Shown here piece after piece: positions 4,786 through 15,620 of a DNA stretch of 64,000 nucleotides (positions are counted from its first letter, which is position 1; each line of letters begins with the position of its first letter). Made by a program: the position numbers and the translations under genes. Below the pieces are notes generated by a model. The model ran no database searches and was not told the origin of the DNA. It saw nothing but the letters and a program-made list of their open reading frames with translations. The stretch is from Megamerina dolium (taxonomy: Eukaryota; Arthropoda; Insecta; Diptera; Megamerinidae). Location of the stretch: the NCBI GenBank assembly GCA_963854835.1, contig OY978526.1:38354501-38418500 (forward strand), written 5' to 3'.

Positions 4786-4790
4786 ACTAG

Positions 4791-5331
4791 TGTTTACGCC
4801 AGAACACCTCGCGCACTGTTATTGTGATTAGGAGTGTGTGGGCGATCTGGCATCACCAATTATGCCAGTTCTCCACTCACTTCTACCACTTCCCACTCTC
4901 TCACTTTTTTTTCTTTGCCTTTGCTTTTGTCAAAGTGCAATATATTTTCTTATCAGTTAGTCATTCTTTAAAATCTCACTTGGTAGTGCGCGTCTATCCT
5001 TTTCGCTATTTTAAAATAAGAAGTAAAAATCTAAATTAAAATAAAATTAAATTACATAAGTGAAATTAAAAACATAAGACTCTTTATTAAGAAATAAAAG
5101 CTAAAAATAATAAGTTTAAGAAAAACCCAAGCGAATTCTAACCTAAATTTAAAATCATAAAAAAAAATAAAAAATTAAGAACAAAGTGGAGTTAAAAACA
5201 ATAAAACCAACAGACAAACAAGTGTATGCGGTTTTGTGGCAGCAGCAGCTCGAACAACATCAACCCCATCATCATCAGGCAAGCCTTGCCAGTAAGCGGC
5301 CCACCGGCATTCACTCTGCTTCACGTGCTCA
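4791..5331 (+). repeat. BEL 5' LTR
   Basis: The LTR starts TGTTTACGCC and ends CACGTGCTCA. It is nearly identical to 14523-15064. The start and end are fixed by the ACTAG target duplication outside and by the primer site that begins five bases after the end. Confidence 0.95.
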
Positions 5332-5336
5332 TTTTA

Positions 5337-5353
5337 TGGTCCTTCGAGCCGGA
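5337..5353 (+). promoter_or_regulatory. Primer binding site, complementary to tRNA-Tyr 3' end
   Basis: TGGTCCTTCGAGCCGGA is the reverse complement of the 3' end of animal tRNA-Tyr (CCGGCTCGAAGGA plus CCA). It lies five bases inside the 5' LTR, the expected place for minus-strand priming. Confidence 0.85.
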
Positions 5354-8023
5354 TTGGCTCGCAACTAGTGGTAAGCCCTTGCCATAAAGGTAATAACTGT
5401 GTGAGTGTAGTAAATCCAAAGTTTTAAATTGTGGTTACATAAGTATATAAGAATCAGGTTGTTCTTGCTGATTCCAATTTGTTGTTTTTCTTTGCCTACG
5501 GGAAAATATTATACCGCATAAACTTTGGAAATATTCCGCTACGCCTACACATATTTAGAATATATTACATATATAGCATTATTTACTAAAAAACTAAAAT
5601 ACAATAAAAATAAAAGAAAACCAATATATAAAGATCTTTCGGTTGGGTGGTTGTTCTGAACGGTGCCTAATTGGGAACATACATTTTCTATTGTTGTACT
5701 ACGTACTCGTTAATTTGCCTTCGGCATACATACGCGTATACATATGTAGTGCATGCATCGCGGCTAAAATCGTCGATTGACCATTTTCTCATCATAAAAT
5801 AAGGATTCTCCAAAGATCAAATCAAGTCAACGTTTTTTCTCTTTTTTTGGGTTTCGGTTTGTTTCTAGTCGAGTTTATTTGTACATACGTACATACATAC
5901 ATACTTACGTGATATTGCTCTAGTTATTGATGTTCCACCAAAGAAGAATAGCAAAAGCAATTTCATGCAGTCGACCTTTTCTTGTCTTCGTAAATTCAAC
6001 ACATACATACAATTGGTTTTAATGTTGAACTTAGCAAATTGAAAAGTACGAGCCGAGAATCTCTTGTTCACGTTAAAGTATAATAATTTCGCTCTTACAA
6101 GAGCACTGCAATTGGACTTTCTATTTAGTTCAATACACATGCATATAGTGCATAAAAAGGTGTAATCGATCATCTCTCTTAGTTTCGGCAAACTATCATA
6201 GTACAACGTACTATGCAATAATTGGAACAAATATACACGTGTACTTTGGTTCGGCTACTTCGTATGCGAACAATGTTGCCAGATTTTTTTTTTCAAAAAA
6301 CTGTGAAACTGACAAAAAAAAACTGTATTTTGAACCAAAAAACTGTAACCTTCAAAAACGAGATTTTTGTAAAATAACGTTTCTTTTTTTAATTTTATTA
6401 AAAAAACATAACACAAAACAATTCATTTTGAATGGTGAGTGGCGGAGAATGTACCGGGTTTGCTTCGAATTCCATTTACTCTTAGATTTCTTACCACTTT
6501 TTGTTCAAAACTTGTCCATTTTTAACGGAAAAAATATCAAACAGCCACCAACGTACAGAAAACTTCTTCTTCTTCACTCAGAAAACAATAGCAATACACA
6601 AATGACAAACAAATTGCCGTATCGAAGCATGGTTGCAATTTAATCACAGGGTCCCCGTGAGATTTCATTTATTTATTTATCTACAGTGATGTTCCCTGTA
6701 GACAAATATATAATATACTTTTATTAAAATTAAAAAAATATAAATGTTTTTTATTTCTCTTTTTAAATTTGAAATAAAAAACTGTAATTTGTACTACGAC
6801 GTATTTTTAAAAAACTGTGAGCTTGTCTAAAAAACTGTAATTTACAGTTAAAACTGTAAATATGGCAACACTGTATGCGAACCATAAGCAACGTCTCTTT
6901 TGTCACGATCACTTCATTTTACTTTCTCTTCTATACGTAAGAGAACATTGCATATTCGTGCATAATATTTATTTACATTTACTTCGGATTGCTTAACTAT
7001 CGGTAGGCAAGAACAAGTAAAGCAATATATTACGGGACATATACTTAGTAGCATCTGTTGATAAACAACAATACCATCTCTTTTGTATTATTGTTTGTTT
7101 GATTTGCTTATCTACGTAAGCTACAACAGCAATACCATATAAGAGCTACCTACAAAAACGTGTAAAATTGCTAATTTTACTGCTTCATAACAAAACAACC
7201 AACACACAGGAACATATATACTATTTTTGGTGGTACTTTCTATGAATACATTTTTTTCCTTACATTTGTTCCGCATTTGTAAGTTTCTCAATTCGCTGCC
7301 TCTCAATCTTCATAATTACAATAACTATAATCATAATTGTGATCGCCAATGATTGGAATATTGGATTGCACACACATACACACCCTCACACCTTCGTATT
7401 GTGTTTGTTCAATTACATTGACTTCACATACATAAGATAGAACATTAGAGCGCCTCAATTGATTTTCGAGATTCATTACATACATCATCGCGTTATACTA
7501 AATAAATTATTGTGGCTCAAATATTTCTTTTTTTTCTTTTCTTGATTTATTACATAAATCATTACGTCATCTTAAGTGGATCATTGCGAGCAATTGTGAA
7601 TCATTGCATTTAAATACTTAAATAACGTAATTATAATTACATTTAATTTACTACCGGAATTGTTTTAATTTGAAATTATGAATTTCTATACGTTTTAATA
7701 CGCGGGCATCCTGCCGATTTTCTACAGGCTTATCTTGAATAAAGGATTACGTCCTTTAGAAGAATCGAGCATTTGATATTCGATCAGTAAGCCGATTCTA
7801 TTGCTTCCTCATATCGTTCTTCTACGGTAATTATACGTGCTACCTGATTTAGTGATTTTCAGCGGTTTTCACCGCATTCCGGAGTCTTACTGCATTTCTC
7901 ACAGGGCATTTTTTCGATTGGTTCCGTACTATTTGGAGCTGTAGCTCGACGAATTATTCGAATTCGTATTTTAATATCGCTTTTCTTCAGTATACTGATT
8001 TCACTCTACGACTTATCAGTAAG
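5354..8023 (+). other. Long BEL leader, possibly an intron
   Basis: There are 2.67 kb between the primer site and the gag ATG with no gag-like coding sequence on either strand. A strong donor-like GTAAGC starts at 5371, 17 bases after the PBS. Acceptor-like pyrimidine-AG sites occur near 7989 and at 8017-8019, just before the ATG. Bases 6271-6873 are a separate hAT MITE insertion. The remaining 5382-6262 and 6882-8020 are AT-rich and unrecognised. Confidence 0.5.
6271..6873. mobile_element. Non-autonomous hAT-like element (MITE), 603 bp
   Basis: It has terminal inverted repeats CAATGTTGCCA and CAGTGTTGCCA (right end reverse-complemented). It is flanked by a perfect 8-bp duplication TATGCGAA (6263-6270, 6874-6881), the hAT hallmark. 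Both subterminal regions carry many AAAACTGT copies, resembling transposase-binding subterminal repeats. It has no transposase ORF. It inserted into the BEL leader, so it is either younger than this BEL copy or was carried by it. Confidence 0.85.
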
Positions 8024-10570
8024 ATGGCGGATATTAAACGTTTTTACGCTGCCGCTGAGGATATAGAAGAAACCGACAAGTATTTGCAGCTCATAGAAAC
8101 CGACACCCATAGCACATATGCGCTTGACGTCCAGAGGAAGGATTTCGAGGCATCATGGAGCGACCTGAAAGCGGCATACATCTCTATTATCGCGCAGGAA
8201 ACTGAAGCGACTGACCTAGCCCAGATTAAAGCAAAATATAAGGATTGTAAAATATGTTACATTCGTTGCTTAGCAAATATTAACGCGCATATTCATGATT
8301 TGACTGTGATCATGTCGTCTCCCGTTGTTGCGGATGCGCCCGCTGAGAGTTCCTCTCACCAATGCTCGGAAGTTCCTGCAATTCAACTGCCACCATGCGA
8401 TACAGCATGTTTCTATGGATATTATGTGTCATGGCCCAGTTTTCGGGATATGTTTACGGCATTATACCGGAACAATCCACGGTTATCGCCCGTGGAGAAA
8501 TTATACCACCTGCTTCAGAAAACGCGAGGTGAAGCTCACAATATCATTAGGCCAACTCCGTTGACTAATGATGGCTTCCTCCTTGCGTGGCATAATCTTG
8601 AGGAGAGGTATGAAAATAAACGAATTCTAGTGAATATTCAGTTGAAGGCCCTGTTCAATTTGCAGCCAGTGGTTCTAGAAACTGGTGCGAACATAAAGCT
8701 TTTACAGCGAACGATTAATGACTGTTATCTGTGTTCCACGAAACTCCCCGACACCACCTTGTGTCTGTGGGAGCAGTCTATTAAGAATAAGCGTGCAATA
8801 CCTACATGGAGAGCCTTTGATACTTTTTTAACCGAACGTTTTCAGACTTTGGAGTCGGTCTTGGACATTCGAGGTGGTACAGGGCAACCCAGACAGCCAC
8901 AAAATCGGCAAAACAGCCAGCCACAGATTCGGCAACCCGGTCGATTCGATGTCCCCAGGCATCCTAATAATTCAGTGAATTCGCAGAATATTCACACATA
9001 CCAAGTGAATGTCCGGAAGCAAAATTGTCAAGTGTGCCAGAAGATGCATCATTTGCGCACCTGCCCAGATTTTTTGAAGCTGTCAGTGAATGATCGCTAT
9101 AACACCGTGAAGAGATACAAGCTTTGTGTCAATTGCTTAGCAAACTCTCACGAATCCACCTCCTGCAAGAGTCTTTTTTCATGCTCCGCGTGTAACAAAA
9201 GACATCACTCTTTATTGCATAGGCCGGAAAAAGGATCCAGTCCCAGTGAGGAACAACTTCCATCAACATCAGCCACGGCGGCAGAAAGGTCGCGACAATC
9301 GTTCACTTGTCAGCTGCAAACTGCGCCAACAAGTGGGCCCAATACAAGTTCAAGAACCCACAATCATCCAACGAGAGATGGTCCGGTATTACTCGGAACG
9401 GCTATGGTGCACATCAGACACCAGAATGCTACGTTTACTGCTCGTGCCCTCATCGACTCTGGATCTGAAGCGACCTTCATATCCGAACGCTTGCGAAATA
9501 GGTTGCGCCTCCCTGTTTGCGACGTTCGAACTGAGGTCACGGGTCTGAACGAGGTGGTTACGGCACATTCATCCAAAATGTGTTCTTTAGAAATCGGTTC
9601 GCCTATAAACGCTGCAGTTTCTATCACGGTAGATGCCTTTGTATTAAAGAAGTTAACTGGACAACTGCCGTCGTGCTCGATTCTCAAGAACTTACGTGAC
9701 GAATTTGCTGGTCTGCGACTAGCCGACAGACATCAGCATCAAGGTTCTTCTGTGGATTTGGTTCTAGGTGGTGACGTCTACCCTTCTATCATGCTGGAAG
9801 GAATTCACAAGGGCATTCTTGGAGCTTTGATTGCTCAAAACACGGTTTTCGGTTGGATTATTACCGGTCGTTACACGACATCACCACCCAACACACGAGT
9901 TCAATCATTTTACAATGAAGTAAGCCTGGAACGACAAATTTCTAAATTCTGGGAACTGGAAGACATCCCAACGGCTATCCGAAAGACTCCTGAAGAATCT
10001 TATTGTGAAGAGTACTACAACAGGACCACGTTTCGGAATCACGAAGGCAGATTCGTGGTATCATTGCCGTTCAAGAGGCAGTTTCCCCAAGATTTACCGC
10101 TGGGCGATTCGCGCAGCTCAGCTCGAGCTCAATTTTTCCGAAACGAAGCGCGCTTAGTTAAGGCCCCACAATTCAAAATTGACTACGACAACGTAATTTT
10201 GGGATATCTCGAGTTAGGCCACATGAAACCAACCGAGACAAGCGCTTCTACAGAAGTCAATTCGTTCTACCATCTGCCTCACCATGCCGTGGTGAAGCCG
10301 GATAGTACTACTACTAAACTTCGTGTGGTTTTTAATGCTTCGTGTCGGACCTCCACGGGCAATAGTTTGAACGATGTCCTTTATACTGGACCTATACTGC
10401 AATCGGATTTGATGGTACTATTATTACGATGGAGATTTTTCCGTTTTGCTTTCAATTCCGATATCGAGAAAATGTACCGCCAAATTATGGTACACCCAGA
10501 TCATGCGCCATTTCAACGCATATATTTCCGAAAGTCACCAGCCGAAGATGTTCATAGCTTTGAACTATAA
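8024..10570 (+). pseudogene. BEL gag-protease-RT, open up to an in-frame stop inside RT
   Basis: This 848-codon frame starts at ATGGCG just after an acceptor-like CAG. Residues about 130-290 are the BEL Gag domain (SWPSFRDMFTALYRNNP; LSPVEKLYHLL). A triple zinc module starts near residue 335: CX2CX3HX4C (CQVCQKMHHLRTC), then CX2CX4HX4C, then CX2CX3H with HSLLH. The aspartic protease active site ALIDSGSEATFIS is near residue 475. RT begins near 760 (LRVVFNASCRTSTGNSLND; SDIEKMYRQIMVHPDH). TAA at 10568-10570 falls at ELxTVTFG, where family members have an amino acid, and the frame continues unchanged after it. In the family this polyprotein builds the particle and copies the RNA; here it ends before the YVDD box. 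Confidence 0.9.
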
Positions 10571-11671
10571 ACTGTGACATTTGGCGTGAATTGTGCTCCG
10601 TACTTAGCTATTCGAACGTTGTTGCAACTTGCAAACGAAAACGAACTGGCTAACCCTGTCGCGTCAAATCTTCTCAAACATTCGATGTACGTAGACGATG
10701 TACTGGGCGGAGCACACACGTTGGACGAAGCTATACTAGCTCGTGACCAACTTGTTTCGGTATTACGTACCGCAGGGTTTTCTTTGAGGAAGTGGACATC
10801 AAACCACCAACGGATACTTGAGAACCTGCCTTCAGATCACCTTCTGGATTCGGAATTCTTAAATATCTCGGATACGAGTACCGCAAAAACCCTTGGGCTC
10901 AGATGGAACGCAGGTTCTGATCACTTTTTTTTCTCTCCTGAGTCTCTTCCGCACAAAGCGTCTTTTACGAAGCGAGAAGTACTGTCCACTATCGCCAAAC
11001 TTTTCGATCCTGCTGGATGGTTGGCACCAAAGATTGTGGTGGCAAAGATGTTGATGCAACAGGTGTGGCTCGATCACACTGATTGGGATGAGTCACTAAC
11101 GCCAGTGACGCTTCACAAGTGGCAAGCGTTTCTGTCGGATTATCCTAATCTGAGCACAATTCGCATTCCTCGTTTCGTGCAGTTCTCTCCGGACTCTATG
11201 ATGCAAGTTCACGGCTTCTGCGATGCATCAGAAAAGGCCTATGCAGCGGCAATATATGTGCGTATAGAAAGCCCTTCGGGTGAAGTTCATACCCATTTGT
11301 TGGCTGCGAAAACACGCGTTGCTCCTGTTAAGACGCTCTCATTGCCACGCTTAGAGCTCTGCGGGGCAGAACTCCTGGCGCGGCTGTTAGATTCCTTGAT
11401 ACCGCAGCTTCAGGTTCCAACATACACTGTGTTTGCGTGGACTGATTCTACCATCGTTCTTTCGTGGTTACAAAGGCCTCCATGCCATTGGACCACGTTC
11501 GTGGCAAATCGAGTCTCATCGATAATAGAGAAAATTGTTGACTCTAATTGGCAGCATGTGAGTTCCACCGACAACCCAGCCGATGTGGCTACTCGCGGAA
11601 CCACCGCCAAGGTACTGGCAGATAATGAATTGTGGTGGCACGGCCCTAGATGGCTGAAGATGCAACGCTAG
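10571..11671 (+). pseudogene. BEL RT (YVDD) and RNase H part
   Basis: This is the direct in-frame continuation of the preceding ORF after its stop (TVTFGVNCAPYLAIRTL). It contains the catalytic RT box MYVDDVLGG, the BEL thumb region (TAKTLGLRWN; LFDPAGWLAPK) and an RNase H-like domain (GFCDASEKAYAAAIYVR; LPRLELCGAELLARLL; FAWTDSTIVLSWL). It ends at a TAG (11669-11671) after LKMQR, again with coding continuing in the same frame. The residues visible in YVDD and RNase H look catalytically intact; only the stops break the polyprotein. Confidence 0.9.
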
Positions 11672-13230
11672 TATTGGCCAACTATAGCACCAGATGTGGG
11701 TATGAGCGCCATTCCTGAGACAAGAAGAATAAAATCTCACTACGTGAGATCAGATGTCTCGGAGGATATTCTGAATCGGTTTTCCTCTCTTCCGCGCGCC
11801 TTACGTGTCGTGTCATATATCCTGCGTTATTTCAATAATGCCAACGTTGTACGACGAACACGATACACATTTACCTCCCTAATCATCTCCACCGAAGAGA
11901 TAGTCTCCACGCGTAACAGATTAATAAGATTGTGTCGAATGCTTAAGAACTTAAGAAACTCCCGATTTCGAGTAAGAGTGATATACTATCACTCAATCCG
12001 TTTTTGGATTGATAGGGCGTGATGCGCGTTAACGGACGTTTAGCACACTCCTCCGCTCTCTCTTACAGAGAAAGATTTCCCATCATACTCCCGTATTCTG
12101 GACGCTTTACTCACTTGTTGGTAAAATTTGTCCATGTGATTTCTATTCACAGCTCCAATCAACTGCTTCTGCGACTATTACGCATGGAATTTTGGGTGCC
12201 TAAGTTGAAAAACTTAATAAAAACGACGGTGCATAACTGCAAACCTTGTCTTCTCGACAGGCAAAAGCAGTACACACAAATAATGGCCGCATTACCGCCC
12301 GAACGCACGGCCCTTTCACGCCCATTTGCTACGACCGGTGTAGACTTTGCCGGCCCCTTTGACATAAAGGCGTATATAGGCCGAGCATGTCGTATCACAA
12401 AGGGGTATGTCTGTGTTTTTGTGTGCTTCGCAACGAAGGCCATTCACCTTGAGGCAACAAGTGATATGACAACACCTACGTTCCTCGCAGCATTCTCACG
12501 CTTCTTCTCCCGTCGTGGCTGTCCAGCCCTGATATTTTCGGACAATGGAACGTCTTTTGTTGGCTCTTCTCGAGCTCTACGAGCTGAAGGAGAAAAATTT
12601 CTATGCCAAGTTCGTGACACTGTCGGAACCGCTCAAAGCCATCAAAATTTAGAATGGCGTTTTATTCCTGCCGGTGCTCCGCACATGGGTGGTCTCTGGG
12701 AAGCAGGCGTCAAGAGCTTTAAGGCTCATTTAAAGAAGCTTCCTCACGGTCAGAAATATACTCTGGAGGAGTTCAGTACGATGTTATCACGTATCGAAGC
12801 ATGCCTCAATTCGAGACCGTTGAGCCCTATGTCCGACAATCCATCAGACTTAACTCCTCTTACGCCTGGTCATTTCTTGATCGGTTCGGCGTTGTTGTCG
12901 CCTGCTGAGATTGATGTCTCCGACCAATCTTTGAGCATTGTTAATAGGTGGCAACGGCTTAAAATTATCTACCAATCCTTCTGTCTACGATGGAAGGACG
13001 AGTATCTGAAGGAGTTACACAAGCGCACAAAGTGGAAATATCCGCAAAAGGACATTTGTGTGGGGGATCTAGTTGTTATTCGCATTGAGAATTTACCACC
13101 AAATGAGTGGCGACTGGGTCGCGTGCATAAAACTTATTTAGGATCCGATTCTCGGGTGCGAGTGGCTGATGTTCGAACCGCCAAGGGCGTTCTTACTAGG
13201 CCAGTTGTTAAACTTGTAGCACTGCCCTAA
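11672..13230 (+). pseudogene. BEL integrase part of pol
   Basis: The RNase H-integrase linker continues in frame to about 12020 and then shifts frame near 12015 into a 403-codon frame ending at TAA 13230. That frame has the integrase zinc region (ending CKPCLLDRQK), the BEL integrase core (GVDFAGPF with the first Asp, FSDNGTSF with the second, LWEAGVKSFKAHLKK after it) and the C-terminal WRLGRVHKTYLG segment. This enzyme inserts the cDNA in the nucleus. The frame change sits in a GGGCGTGATGCGCG context and looks like a small indel. Confidence 0.88.
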
Positions 13231-13357
13231 TCCCTTACGGCGACATTCCCCATTTCTGAGTCTTGTCTTTCATTCAGTGTACTATACAAAATGACTGCAA
13301 CTACTAATTTTGGTCTTTTTTTTGTTTTTTTTTTATTTTTATCTCAATAAGCCCATA

Positions 13358-13933
13358 ATGTCTGCGAACCATCGAAGATCGGCTCGTATTAGCCCAATCC
13401 GCATACCAAACAAGGAAAAAATGTACGGCGGTCAGGGGAAACGTCGGTCTGGGTGCCGATTATGCCGTCGAATGCACCCATTACGTGAGTGTCCAAAGTT
13501 CATTGTGATGTCGGTGATAAAGAGGTACGAGACAGTGGCAAGACGCCGCTGCTGCCTAAACTGCCTGGCCTACAGCCATCATGTCGACCAATGCCGAGTA
13601 TCGACTAGGTGTCGGCATTGTTCAGAGAAACACCATACAATGCTACACGAGAGAGTGCGGGGGCCAGGGCCGAAAAAGGATAGACAAAAAAAGACGCGTA
13701 CTCCTCCCCCGTTGCAACATCCGGCGACGCAGCCATGCTACTGCACGAATGCAACGACATCGCAAACGGTTCCGCAGTTGGTGGTCCCCATTCAACCGCC
13801 CGTCCAGTCCCTAGTACCATTCGTATCAGCGGGTGGCCAAATACTGCGCCAATTCGCCCCACGGGCTACTTCATCAGCCATCACTCCAGCCTCGGTGTTC
13901 CAGGCCCTAGAATGGATTTTTAATCGATTTTGA
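13358..13933 (+). CDS. BEL accessory ORF with Gag-like triple zinc module
   Basis: This is an intact 191-codon ORF, 127 bases after the pol stop and in a different frame, in the position env takes in other LTR elements. I chose the ATG at 13358 over an upstream in-frame GTG because it directly follows a long pyrimidine tract and an AG acceptor-like site (13350-13351). The protein is basic (RRSARISPIRI). It has CRLCRRMHPLREC, then CLNCLAYSHHVDQC, then CRHCSEKHHTMLH: the same three zinc patterns in the same order as the element's own Gag. The rest is a Pro/Gln-rich tail ending EWIFNRF. It has no signal peptide or membrane segment, so it is not an envelope. Likely role (inference): an extra nucleic-acid-binding, nucleocapsid-like protein made from a spliced RNA. 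No stops have accumulated, unlike pol. Confidence 0.8.
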   Translation: MSANHRRSARISPIRIPNKEKMYGGQGKRRSGCRLCRRMHPLRECPKFIVMSVIKRYETVARRRCCLNCLAYSHHVDQCRVSTRCRHCSEKHHTMLHERVRGPGPKKDRQKKTRTPPPLQHPATQPCYCTNATTSQTVPQLVVPIQPPVQSLVPFVSAGGQILRQFAPRATSSAITPASVFQALEWIFNRF

Positions 13934-14509
13934 ATCCTGGTGACACATTCACCACAGAATATTCGATTGGCTAACATACCTTTGAATTAAGTTGAAACGT
14001 ATTTGTATCTGCCTGTTTTAATTGGATTTTAATTTACTTTTTGAGTTTTATTTTGAATTTCTTTGGCATGTTTAAATTTGAAATTAATTTCAACATTGTT
14101 TACCTTTAATACTTTCTTTTAATATTAGTCATACAATTCTATTTTTTTTGTTTCCTATACTTTTTGAATTCGGTTAAAGTCTCTCTCCCGTATGTACTTC
14201 TAAGTTATTATTTAAGGATTTGTGAATTTATCTGCCCTTACTTATACTTATGAATGCGTATTACATTTTTTTTTGTTTTTTGAATTAATTAATTAAGTAC
14301 ACCTATGTTCTATTGCGTTCTTCCCTTTTTTGTAATTATTAAGTTGTTAGAATTTTAATTTTATTTTAATTTTATATTCTCTCTATTACTATGGTTATTT
14401 TTTAATTCTATTATCTTTTAATCTTAATTAAGTTTAATTTTTCGTTGAATTTGGTTTAATATTTTCTCTACTTCTGGTGTGGATTGCGTCTTCTTTGCAG
14501 CATTACTGC
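13934..14509 (+). other. BEL 3' untranslated region
   Basis: T-rich, non-coding sequence between the accessory ORF and the polypurine tract. I see no domains or repeats beyond homopolymer runs. Confidence 0.6.
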
Positions 14510-14522
14510 AAGGGGGGCGGAA
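14510..14522 (+). promoter_or_regulatory. BEL polypurine tract
   Basis: AAGGGGGGCGGAA lies immediately before the 3' LTR, the expected primer site for plus-strand DNA synthesis. Confidence 0.75.
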
Positions 14523-15064
14523 TGTTTACGCCAGAACACCTCGCGCACTGTTATTGTGATTAGGAGTGTGTGGGCGATCTGGCATCACCAATTATGCCAG
14601 TTCTCCACTCACTTCTACCACTTCCCACTCTCTCACTTTTTTTTTTCTTTGCCTTTGTTTTTGTCAAAGTGCAATATATTTTCTTATCAGTTAGTCATTC
14701 TTTAAAATCTCACTTGGTAGTGCGCGTCTATCCTTTTCGCTATTTTAAAATAAGAAGTAAAAATCTAAATTAAAATAAAATTAAATTACATAAGTGAAAT
14801 TAAAAACATAAGACTCTTTATTAAGAAATAAAAGCTAAAAATAATAAGTTTAAGAAAAACCCAAGCGAATTCTAACCTAAATTTAAAATCATAAAAAAAA
14901 TAAAAAATTAAGAACAAAGTGGAGTTAAAAACAATAAAACCAACAGACAAACAAGTGTATGCGGTTTTGTGGCAGCAGCAGCTCGAACAACATCAACCCC
15001 ATCATCATCAGGCAAGCCTTGCCAGTAAGCGGCCCACCGGCATTCACTCTGCTTCACGTGCTCA
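14523..15064 (+). repeat. BEL 3' LTR
   Basis: Nearly identical to the 5' LTR: a T-run two bases longer, one C-to-T and an A-run one base shorter. It is followed by the ACTAG duplication at 15065-15069. Confidence 0.95.
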
Positions 15065-15099
15065 ACTAGTTTATTCAAATTCATAATAGAATCTTCACT

Positions 15100-15620
15100 T
15101 ACGCCTGAATTGTAACCTTCACGCTAAGGCAAGATACATGTCCCCCCCTTAAAATTAATGGCCAATCAGTTCTACAATGTTCCTCAACAAAGTACTTGGG
15201 TATTCACCTCGACAGAAGGCTGACCTGGAAAAATCACATAGAGGCAAAGAAAACTCAGATCCAGCTTAAAATTAATCAGTTGTGGTGGCTGTTACACAAA
15301 AGATCAAAGTTGAATCTCGATTACAAAGTGCTATTATATAAAGCAATCCTGAAGCCAATCTGGACTTATGGTATTCAGTTTTGGGGCACCGCATCTCCCT
15401 CAAATATAGAAAAATTTCAGCGAATACAATCCAAGTGTCTGCGAATTATTGTAAACGTGCCTTGGTATATGAGGAACGAGATTTAAATGTACCCACAATT
15501 TCAAAAATTACACAATCATCCGAATCCCCTTGCTAGGCAATTGTTGCTGAGCACGGGGCATCGTCGATTAAAAAGAAAAGACACACTGAATGTGCTGTGA
15601 AAACACTATACCTCGCGACT
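15100..15620 (+). mobile_element. Jockey-clade non-LTR fragment (end of RT)
   Basis: The translation matches the C-terminal part of Jockey-type RT: VTFTLRQDTCPP near 15113, then a frame change, then YLGIHLDRRLTWKNHI, KLNLDYKVLLYKAILKP, IWTYGIQFWGTASPSN and RIQSKCLRIIVNVPWYMRNE. After a stop at 15484 the sequence is still recognisable (NHPNPLARQLLL, RRLKRKDTLNVL). It is 5'-truncated and inactive. The BEL element inserted just upstream of it. Confidence 0.85.

Follow-up and report, generated by a model that had tools for sequence, protein, structure and literature searches.

A probable accessory gene of nucleocapsid origin, with predicted spliced expression, in a clade of BEL/Pao retrotransposons from the fly Megamerina dolium

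The profile of the International Committee on Taxonomy of Viruses describes BEL elements as carrying gag, pol and sometimes env (PMC8742986), and in the available part of a BEL survey env is the only extra gene mentioned (PMC3118150). Here we analyze a 64,000-nucleotide stretch of the fly Megamerina dolium (assembly GCA_963854835.1, contig OY978526.1, positions 38,354,501 to 38,418,500 of the forward strand; hereafter the window), which contains a single BEL/Pao element on its plus strand (4791-15064) with an additional open reading frame (ORF) behind pol. We propose that this ORF is an accessory gene of a BEL/Pao clade, which would have arisen as an old duplicate of the Gag nucleocapsid (NC) and come to lie between pol and the polypurine tract. 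A literature search by title and abstract, with Repbase outside its scope, returned no description of a zinc-finger accessory ORF in BEL elements; we file the accessory ORF3 as a known kind of gene, and its form here, an NC duplicate in BEL, as new.

The closest described systems, as given in the available portions of the respective papers, each share some features of this locus. Cer1 of C. elegans carries an ORF in the place of env, and its CERV protein is made from a spliced mRNA and is required for export of the genomic RNA; however, Cer1 belongs to Gypsy/Ty3 rather than BEL, and CERV is a protein of 517 amino acids (aa) encoded in five exons, without a recognized RNA-binding motif (at most a C4-type finger) and unrelated to an NC duplication (PMC10309623). 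Small accessory proteins in insect long terminal repeat (LTR) retrotransposons without env are also represented by sORF1 and sORF2 of the Drosophila 412/MDG1 elements, but sORF2 is a short membrane protein of Metaviridae, encoded mostly upstream of gag (PMC11952523, in part), and the accessory protein described here has no membrane segment. Elements of bdelloid rotifers bear non-envelope ORFs in the ORF3 place and show modular exchange, but these ORFs encode esterase or exonuclease domains from elsewhere rather than a Gag duplicate (PMC5408684). Achilles, a BEL element of a tephritid, the olive fruit fly, resembles the window's element in its tRNA-Tyr site, its very long leader and the three Cys/His motifs of its Gag, although by published description the first two of these motifs both have the spacing CX2CX4HX4C; because Achilles was cloned without its 3' end, an accessory ORF could not have shown there (PMC4580426, in part).

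In the window, the accessory ORF lies within an open frame spanning 13295-13933 (plus strand), between the end of pol at 13230 and the 3' LTR at 14523. Its product has two CCHC fingers (C33-X2-C36-X3-H40-X4-C45 and C66-X2-C69-X4-H74-X4-C79) followed by one CCHH finger (C85-X2-C88-X3-H92-X4-H97). Residues 335-399 of the element's own Gag, in the frame from 8024, contain the same motifs at the same spacing, and a single BLASTP comparison aligned the two proteins without gaps over 81 aa at 41% identity (E 3e-22). The ORF is separate from the capsid: it lacks DUF1759 and does not qualify as a Gag polyprotein. A preliminary description of this DNA had noted an intact 191-codon ORF after pol and a zinc triple in the order and spacing of Gag, both of which we recover; of the span that it gave (13312..13933) the stop end holds, while the protein begins at 13358 and the part from 13312 is a T-rich, splice-like tract.

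This ORF recurs throughout the source genome. A six-frame search of its 500 Mb with the accessory protein gave at least 151 matches (150 of 3178 candidates were scored, making this a lower bound, and a few Gag modules are included, e.g., in frames of 1817 and 1449 aa). Fifteen of the first 16 rows span the whole query, 12 of them free of stops; further rows, at 36-64% identity, represent other families, and many are also stop-free. With the ORF of locus L048 as query, 42 of the 54 best places were stop-free. Among 43 accessory loci read, which represent 41 distinct places, a DUF5641-type pol end adjoins the ORF at 38 loci (36 places), and the five places without it are L018 and the derivative elements L054-L057, which lost that part of pol. 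The order in copies retrieved at full length is gag-pol, ORF, LTR. In L015 the LTRs are identical over 620 bases and a single frame encodes a gag-pol of 1774 aa, while the frame with the ORF is 227 aa long. L016, with 99.7% similarity between its LTRs, has a single gag-pol stop and an ORF-containing frame of 235 aa. For a sibling of the window copy, retrieved as two pieces, the LTRs are identical over 599 bases, gag-pol is 1817 aa long and the frame with the ORF 232 aa. A chance ORF or Gag fragment confined to the window copy is thus ruled out by the many copies in several families, the adjoining DUF5641 and the constrained module (see below). The many places, with the pol end adjoining in 36 of 41, also leave a domesticated host gene unsupported in the source genome.

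A control search with DUF5641 found at least 150 places (150 of 2127 candidates scored) and revealed a second, larger family that bears the ORF. Fourteen of these places were picked for long frames and variety, and about 1.2 kb behind pol was read in each: one had a zinc ORF (L048), one an env (L040) and 12 had neither; because L043 and L051 are near-copies, the 14 do not all represent different families. The env-bearing locus (L040, C4:22808717-) is a BEL family with an env of baculovirus F type (Baculo_F 4.2e-24), open in frame from DUF5641. Such a BEL Env occupies the same place as the accessory protein, 3' of DUF5641, but we saw no sequence relation between the two, and the accessory protein has no membrane segment.

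The pol-end tree, built on about the last 100 residues, places the seven ORF-bearing rows in one clade (support 100/98) against 13 rows without the ORF, with the qualification that L048 and L058 are near-identical and that most of gag-pol is common to L011 and L013. A single gain of the ORF at the base of the carrying clade would explain this most simply. A tree of the zinc module (71 columns, midpoint-rooted) includes 28 accessory modules, 12 from the source genome and 16 from homologs including three NC-protease forms, which a branch with 94/90 support splits from 16 Gag modules; to this tree, 20 of the 47 homologs described below were admitted, those with all three fingers present and labelled accessory, NC-protease or Gag. 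The separation of accessory from Gag modules fits one old duplication. The Gags closest to the accessory modules are those from their own element clade and from L060 (92/75). Finger 1 reads CX2CX3H in 12 accessory modules (for which the search pattern required it) and in five Gags of the carrying clade, and CX2CX4H in six of the seven Gags read from BEL families without the ORF. These relationships favor duplication from a Gag close to the element's lineage over capture from an unrelated source, and to that extent support the earlier proposal of a duplicated or captured NC module kept as a separate accessory protein. A recent copy of the window's own Gag is unsupported, as accessory modules group across families and flies, if less clearly in an earlier tree of 24 rows.

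Selection on the accessory ORFs was estimated by pairwise Nei-Gojobori comparison, in which some distant pairs are saturated. For the zinc module, omega (the ratio of nonsynonymous to synonymous change) was 0.14 for L002-L019 and, not independently of that pair, for L002-L020, 0.14 for L016-L034, 0.16 for L030-L037 and 0.11 for L016-L030 (dS 1.5), and the tails of these five between-family or between-subfamily pairs gave 0.37-0.49; the closer copies L002 and L008 had a module omega of 0.07 on 10 differences. The zinc module is under purifying selection between families, and the tail less so. We give almost no credence to the ORF being a dead Gag fragment that hitchhikes with the element's 3' end: it does adjoin the LTR, and some copies are broken, but frames are open, a between-family module omega of 0.11-0.16 stands where a value near 1 would fit, and relatives occur in other flies. 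The preliminary description had itself named the outcomes that would undo its proposal, namely that other copies lack the ORF, that it decays neutrally or that it is a chance Gag fragment in one copy; we find instead that other copies and families carry it, that its module is constrained, that the same ORF stands behind the pol end elsewhere, and that other flies have relatives of it.

A homolog search from a single sequence gave 172 candidates without one at 1e-3, whereas alignment-based searches found relatives in other flies. The profile built from ten accessory proteins matched 19 proteins in a large protein set at E <= 1e-3 and a second-type profile matched 31, for 47 distinct proteins together. 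Among the named sources are Haematobia irritans, Lucilia cuprina, L. sericata, Calliphora vicina, Cochliomyia hominivorax, Musca domestica and M. autumnalis, and there is one moth record (Eumeta japonica); some matches are true Gags, such as P0005 of Solenopsis, which has PF03564. Many stand-alone homologs are basic at the N-terminus and continue with the zinc module, a linker in which Gln, Arg or His is abundant, and a C-terminal helix like LAEAIKSLANVLC. In P0021 a single frame leads from DUF5641 into the zinc ORF. The motif QG[GR]RH[VG] occurs within the last 40 residues of six homologs out of 47, each of them from a fly, and is followed by two residues to the end in P0023, P0032 and P0046 and by about 14-36 more in P0004, P0043 and P0044. 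In one frame the window's polypurine tract and LTR start translate as LLQGGRNVYAR; because the motif reads like a translated polypurine tract, at least these six seem to be placed as the window's ORF is.

Three homologs, P0002 (Haematobia), P0003 and P0009 (Musca domestica), continue from the zinc module into a protease-like part, recognized by eye in P0003. The alignments of P0002 and P0009 to the window's Gag-protease, at 28% identity each, extend to its residues 615-617, slightly past the DUF1758 match, and the ALIDSGS of the window's protease corresponds to ILVDTAS in P0002 and ALMSQSA in P0009; the DSG motif is absent from the protease-like part of all three homologs. The first stage may have been an ancestral duplicate of NC and protease in which the protease was dead; alternatively, these forms may be decayed Gag-Pol fragments. 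Annotation names among the homologs include hormone receptor 4-like, G-box-binding factor-like, GATA zinc finger 10-like, SNF5-like and sex-determining region Y-like, and proteins so named include P0010, P0024, P0025, P0028, P0039 and P0043. P0024 and P0028, both from Lucilia, have unlike N-termini on one shared sequence, and the joint falls where P0036 shows an apparent translated T-rich tract.

The leaders of the carrying elements contain sequences resembling 5' splice sites, and the ORFs are preceded by, or contain, sequences resembling 3' splice sites. All five leaders read from the carrying clade (four families) have GGTAAG 33-40 nt past the LTR and AAG or CAG/GTA (the slash marking the predicted exon boundary) 57-61 nt past it, extended to GTACGT or GTATGT in three. 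Across the genome, a primer-binding site with GGTAAG 8-40 nt further on occurs at 391 places, and a reversed control gave 0. Three BEL families without the ORF have different primer-binding sites, and in the stretches read behind their LTRs (149, 107 and 329 bases) a frequency-based donor score exceeds 6.5 at three sites only, one 13 nt from the LTR (7.0) and two at least 260 nt from it (6.6 each). A T-rich tract with an AG no more than 25 nt upstream of the ATG was seen by eye in 26 of the 28 distinct places with a retained ATG, eight of which are near-copies of the window's family. On a simple in-house acceptor score, this AG ranks 1st of 345 in L013, 1st of 379 in L016, 3rd of 409 in L015, 7th of 398 in L017 and 2nd of 79 in L058.

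In the second family, the ORF has no ATG before finger 1 and contains an acceptor-like TTTCCAG/T, and the leader has a donor-like AAATGAG/GTGAGA at a distance of 50 nt, counted from where the primer-binding site begins; the predicted splice product would read ATG AGT TCC GCC, in frame into the fingers. Cumulatively, the donor-like and acceptor-like sites, together with the joint in the two Lucilia models, suggest a spliced mRNA, in which a short exon 1 would end just past the primer-binding site and exon 2 would begin at the ORF. Translation from unspliced RNA, by reinitiation, internal entry or readthrough after pol, with the splice-like sites due to chance or serving another use, appears improbable: the acceptor of the window's family is weak, no joined copy of the second family was found in the genome and the frame of L034 is open from the pol end into the ORF, but the sites recur at fixed places in families that have otherwise diverged, and the second-family ORF lacks an ATG that the donor would supply in frame.

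We consider it likely that the ORF is an accessory gene of a BEL clade with predicted spliced expression, as judged from sites rather than transcripts, and several observations weigh against this reading. Donor-like sites scoring as high occur inside copies (10.4 in L017, 9.7 in L011); the acceptor AG is absent in L019 and L036, and the ATG is lost in L014, L020 and L038. In two copies of the window's family the acceptor AG is weak, ranking 28th of 422 and, in the window copy, 41st of 475, and reads AAG. In the second family, a primer-binding site with ATGAGGTRAG occurs at 29 places in three spacing variants (reversed control 0), a pattern that itself demands the ATG; of three leaders, the site is in L067 and L068 and missing in L069, and a genome search for the joined exon ends with up to two mismatches found 0 places. 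The accessory rows were selected by a finger pattern with fixed spacing, and L018, L021 and L023 have each lost one finger cysteine. Pfam gave nothing above cut-off for the accessory proteins, a search of the Protein Data Bank (PDB) by fold with the model described below gave three matches, the best (LIN28A, E 2.6) not significant, and no clear nuclear export signal was seen by eye. In the module tree, the 94/90 split falls short of what the tool counts as shown, though the clade is not rejected; the earlier 24-row tree split the accessory rows, with one clade again not rejected (p-AU, from the approximately unbiased test, 0.469). Tail omega exceeds 1 in several pairs, two module omegas are 1.27-1.28 on five differences each, and near-identical pairs are noisy, with whole-ORF omega often 0.4-1.0. 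Taken with the low between-family omega, the noise in near-identical pairs suggests that the module is constrained over the lifetime of a family and that single copies drift after insertion.

The protein itself is small and very basic, with an isoelectric point of 10.5-11.2 and a net charge of +24 to +27 in seven accessory proteins. Over the 40 residues past the module, mean net charge is +7.5 in 11 accessory rows (two of them one place) versus +0.5 in 13 Gag rows (two of them nearly identical, and L053 at +6), and it is mostly this basic arm behind the fingers that distinguishes the protein from Gag NC. The Pro/Gln-rich tail described earlier is present in mild form (9% Pro and 6% Gln over the whole window protein), but the stretch right after the fingers is strongly basic. 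An AlphaFold model of homolog P0020, made from a 28-row alignment, had a mean predicted local distance difference test score of 70.7 and a predicted template modelling score of 0.42; block means were 70-93 over the fingers and up to 95 in a C-terminal helix (165-186), and the linker was low. By sequence, the best PDB match had an E of 0.077. An Env or other membrane protein is ruled out: the window's accessory protein has no membrane segment (highest 19-residue Kyte-Doolittle mean 1.17), as the preliminary description held, and Pfam gave no envelope match. The absence of a transmembrane segment likewise rules out a fusogen like sORF2 or FAST.

Given its fingers and charge, the product would bind RNA, chiefly the element's own. 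Any element that splices must also export its unspliced RNA, and in lentiviruses Rev acts on unspliced RNA. Because the protein would be produced separately from Gag, through a spliced RNA, it would most likely act early on the unspliced genomic RNA, whether blocking its splicing, exporting it from the nucleus or delivering it to Gag; by analogy, we tentatively suggest a task like that of Rev or CERV. Another possibility, which we rate as somewhat unlikely, is an auxiliary nucleocapsid that would act in the particle or the Gag-RNA complex as an RNA chaperone (in dimer formation, primer annealing and strand transfer), supplementing Gag NC. Finger spacing equal to that of Gag NC and highly basic, chaperone-like arms agree with such a role, but the protein has no capsid part for entering particles, the module is already present in Gag, and a structural dose would need no separate spliced mRNA.

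Exchange between families is also evident at the ORF. Gag-pol of L013 and L011 is about 90% identical up to the pol stop, and their accessory ORFs and 3' ends barely align, which on this comparison is an ORF-LTR cassette exchanged between families; between L017 and L014, similarity breaks right after the fingers. Such exchange at the pol/ORF border and right after the fingers, together with a fast tail next to a fixed module, could point to a Gag-derived fragment that counters host silencing or limits the element's own particles, as the p22 fragment of Ty1 limits Ty1 particles. We find this role improbable, since linkers often have fast tails too and no sequence feature points to a silencing factor, and since the Ty1 p22 parallel comes from capsid, not nucleocapsid. 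Returning to a regulator of the genomic RNA, we regard the following history as conceivable rather than probable: a BEL NC, perhaps an NC-protease, would have been duplicated into the env place before the sampled flies diverged and, via splicing, have become a nuclear RNA-binding factor for its genomic RNA, independently of Rev and CERV. It would persist as a cassette passed among families, in which the fingers stay fixed and the tails evolve fast, and fly annotations would take it for host genes.

The derivative elements show a different arrangement. In L054 (C4:44427617+), L055 (C1:69249908+) and L056 (C1:87047409-), Gag-protease is fused in frame to the accessory ORF, in open frames of 828, 624 and 344 aa (C1:69277135 is similar, with 624 aa); these fusions arose through loss of reverse transcriptase and integrase. 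The derivatives may be moved in trans, and they suggest that an element may need to contribute no more than Gag and the accessory protein itself.

The window's element (Table 1) is assigned to BEL/Pao (Belpaoviridae) by DUF1759, Peptidase_A17 and DUF5641, all above Pfam cut-offs, as is an aspartic protease match, and has LTRs, a primer-binding site, a polypurine tract and a target-site duplication; RVT_1 (0.0011) and rve (1.7e-5) are below cut-off in its pol, which is in pieces. Its LTRs are 99.3% identical (one mismatch and three gap positions in 543 columns), its leader is 2.7 kb long, and we take its primer-binding site to be that for tRNA-Tyr. Gag-pol is broken, as previously described, by stops at 10568-10570 and 11669-11671 in one frame and then by a shift to the frame of 12016-13230. 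The LTRs are nearly identical, yet pol is interrupted by two stops and a frame shift, so some of this damage may be older than the insertion, and the copy may have been copied in trans; that the ORF is open while pol is broken in this copy says little by itself.

Table 1. Features of the BEL/Pao element and its accessory ORF, in window coordinates (slash, predicted exon boundary)
Feature	Position	Strand	Remarks
Target-site duplication ACTAG	4786..4790 (5' copy), 15065-15069 (3' copy)	.	five identical bases beside both LTRs
5' LTR	4791..5331	+	541 bases; partner 14523-15064
Primer-binding site	5337..5353	+	identical in all 5 leaders read (4 families)
First 5' splice-site-like sequence, GTG/GTAAGC	5371..5376	+	40 nt past LTR
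Second 5' splice-site-like sequence, AAG/GTAATA	5390..5395	+	59 nt past LTR
Gag, protease and start of reverse transcriptase	8024..10570	+	open piece, 848 aa and stop; DUF1759 2.5e-14, Asp_protease_2 3.9e-6
Gag NC module	9026..9220	+	three zinc motifs, Gag residues 335-399
Pol piece bounded by two in-frame stops (reverse transcriptase, Peptidase_A17)	10571..11671	+	Peptidase_A17 2e-53
3' pol piece in a different frame (integrase, DUF5641)	12016..13230	+	DUF5641 3.9e-29
T-rich tract ending in AG, 3' splice-site-like	13312..13351	+	6 nt upstream of accessory ATG
Accessory ORF	13358..13933	+	191 codons and stop (13931-13933); ATG at 13358
Zinc module of accessory protein	13454..13648	+	residues 33-97: CCHC, CCHC, CCHH
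Linker, basic then Pro-rich	13649..13711	+	charge compared with Gag rows
CxC motif	13736..13744	+	residues 127-129; in 9 of 10 aligned accessory proteins
C-terminal FQALEWIFNRF	13898..13930	+	retained in L002, altered in L019; differs in other families
Short hairpin TTGCAG-N5-CTGCAA, upstream of polypurine tract	14495..14511	+	compared among copies
Polypurine tract AAGGGGGGCGGAA	14510..14522	+	identical in 4 copies (3 families) with correctly placed 3' LTR junction
3' LTR	14523..15064	+	542 bases

The arms of the hairpin are invariant and its loop variable in the same four copies in which the polypurine tract was compared. Its first arm (in the 14495-14522 region) also supplies the CAG that ends a run rich in pyrimidines, and so could provide a further splice acceptor. 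Just 3' of the 3' LTR, an open frame of 125 aa (15109-15486) resembles by eye what we take to be the end of a LINE reverse transcriptase. Elsewhere in the genome, six copies of the primer-binding site with GGTAAG recur at a period of about 3.1 kb (G000:C1:66656022-66671565), which is probably a tandem array of a short LTR element. The second-family elements L067 and L068 (C1:66475-66491 kb) stand in tandem, with a middle LTR apparently common to both, and the L069/L070 copy has satellite-like repeats near its LTR region and LTR-leader parts that are unlike at the two ends.

If the proposed reading is true, a conserved, selected gene other than env would have been added to one of the main families of animal LTR elements, and it would provide an example of a structural module turned into a regulatory gene. 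It would also offer a way to test how unspliced BEL RNA leaves the nucleus, and would correct fly annotations that list its homologs as host-type genes.

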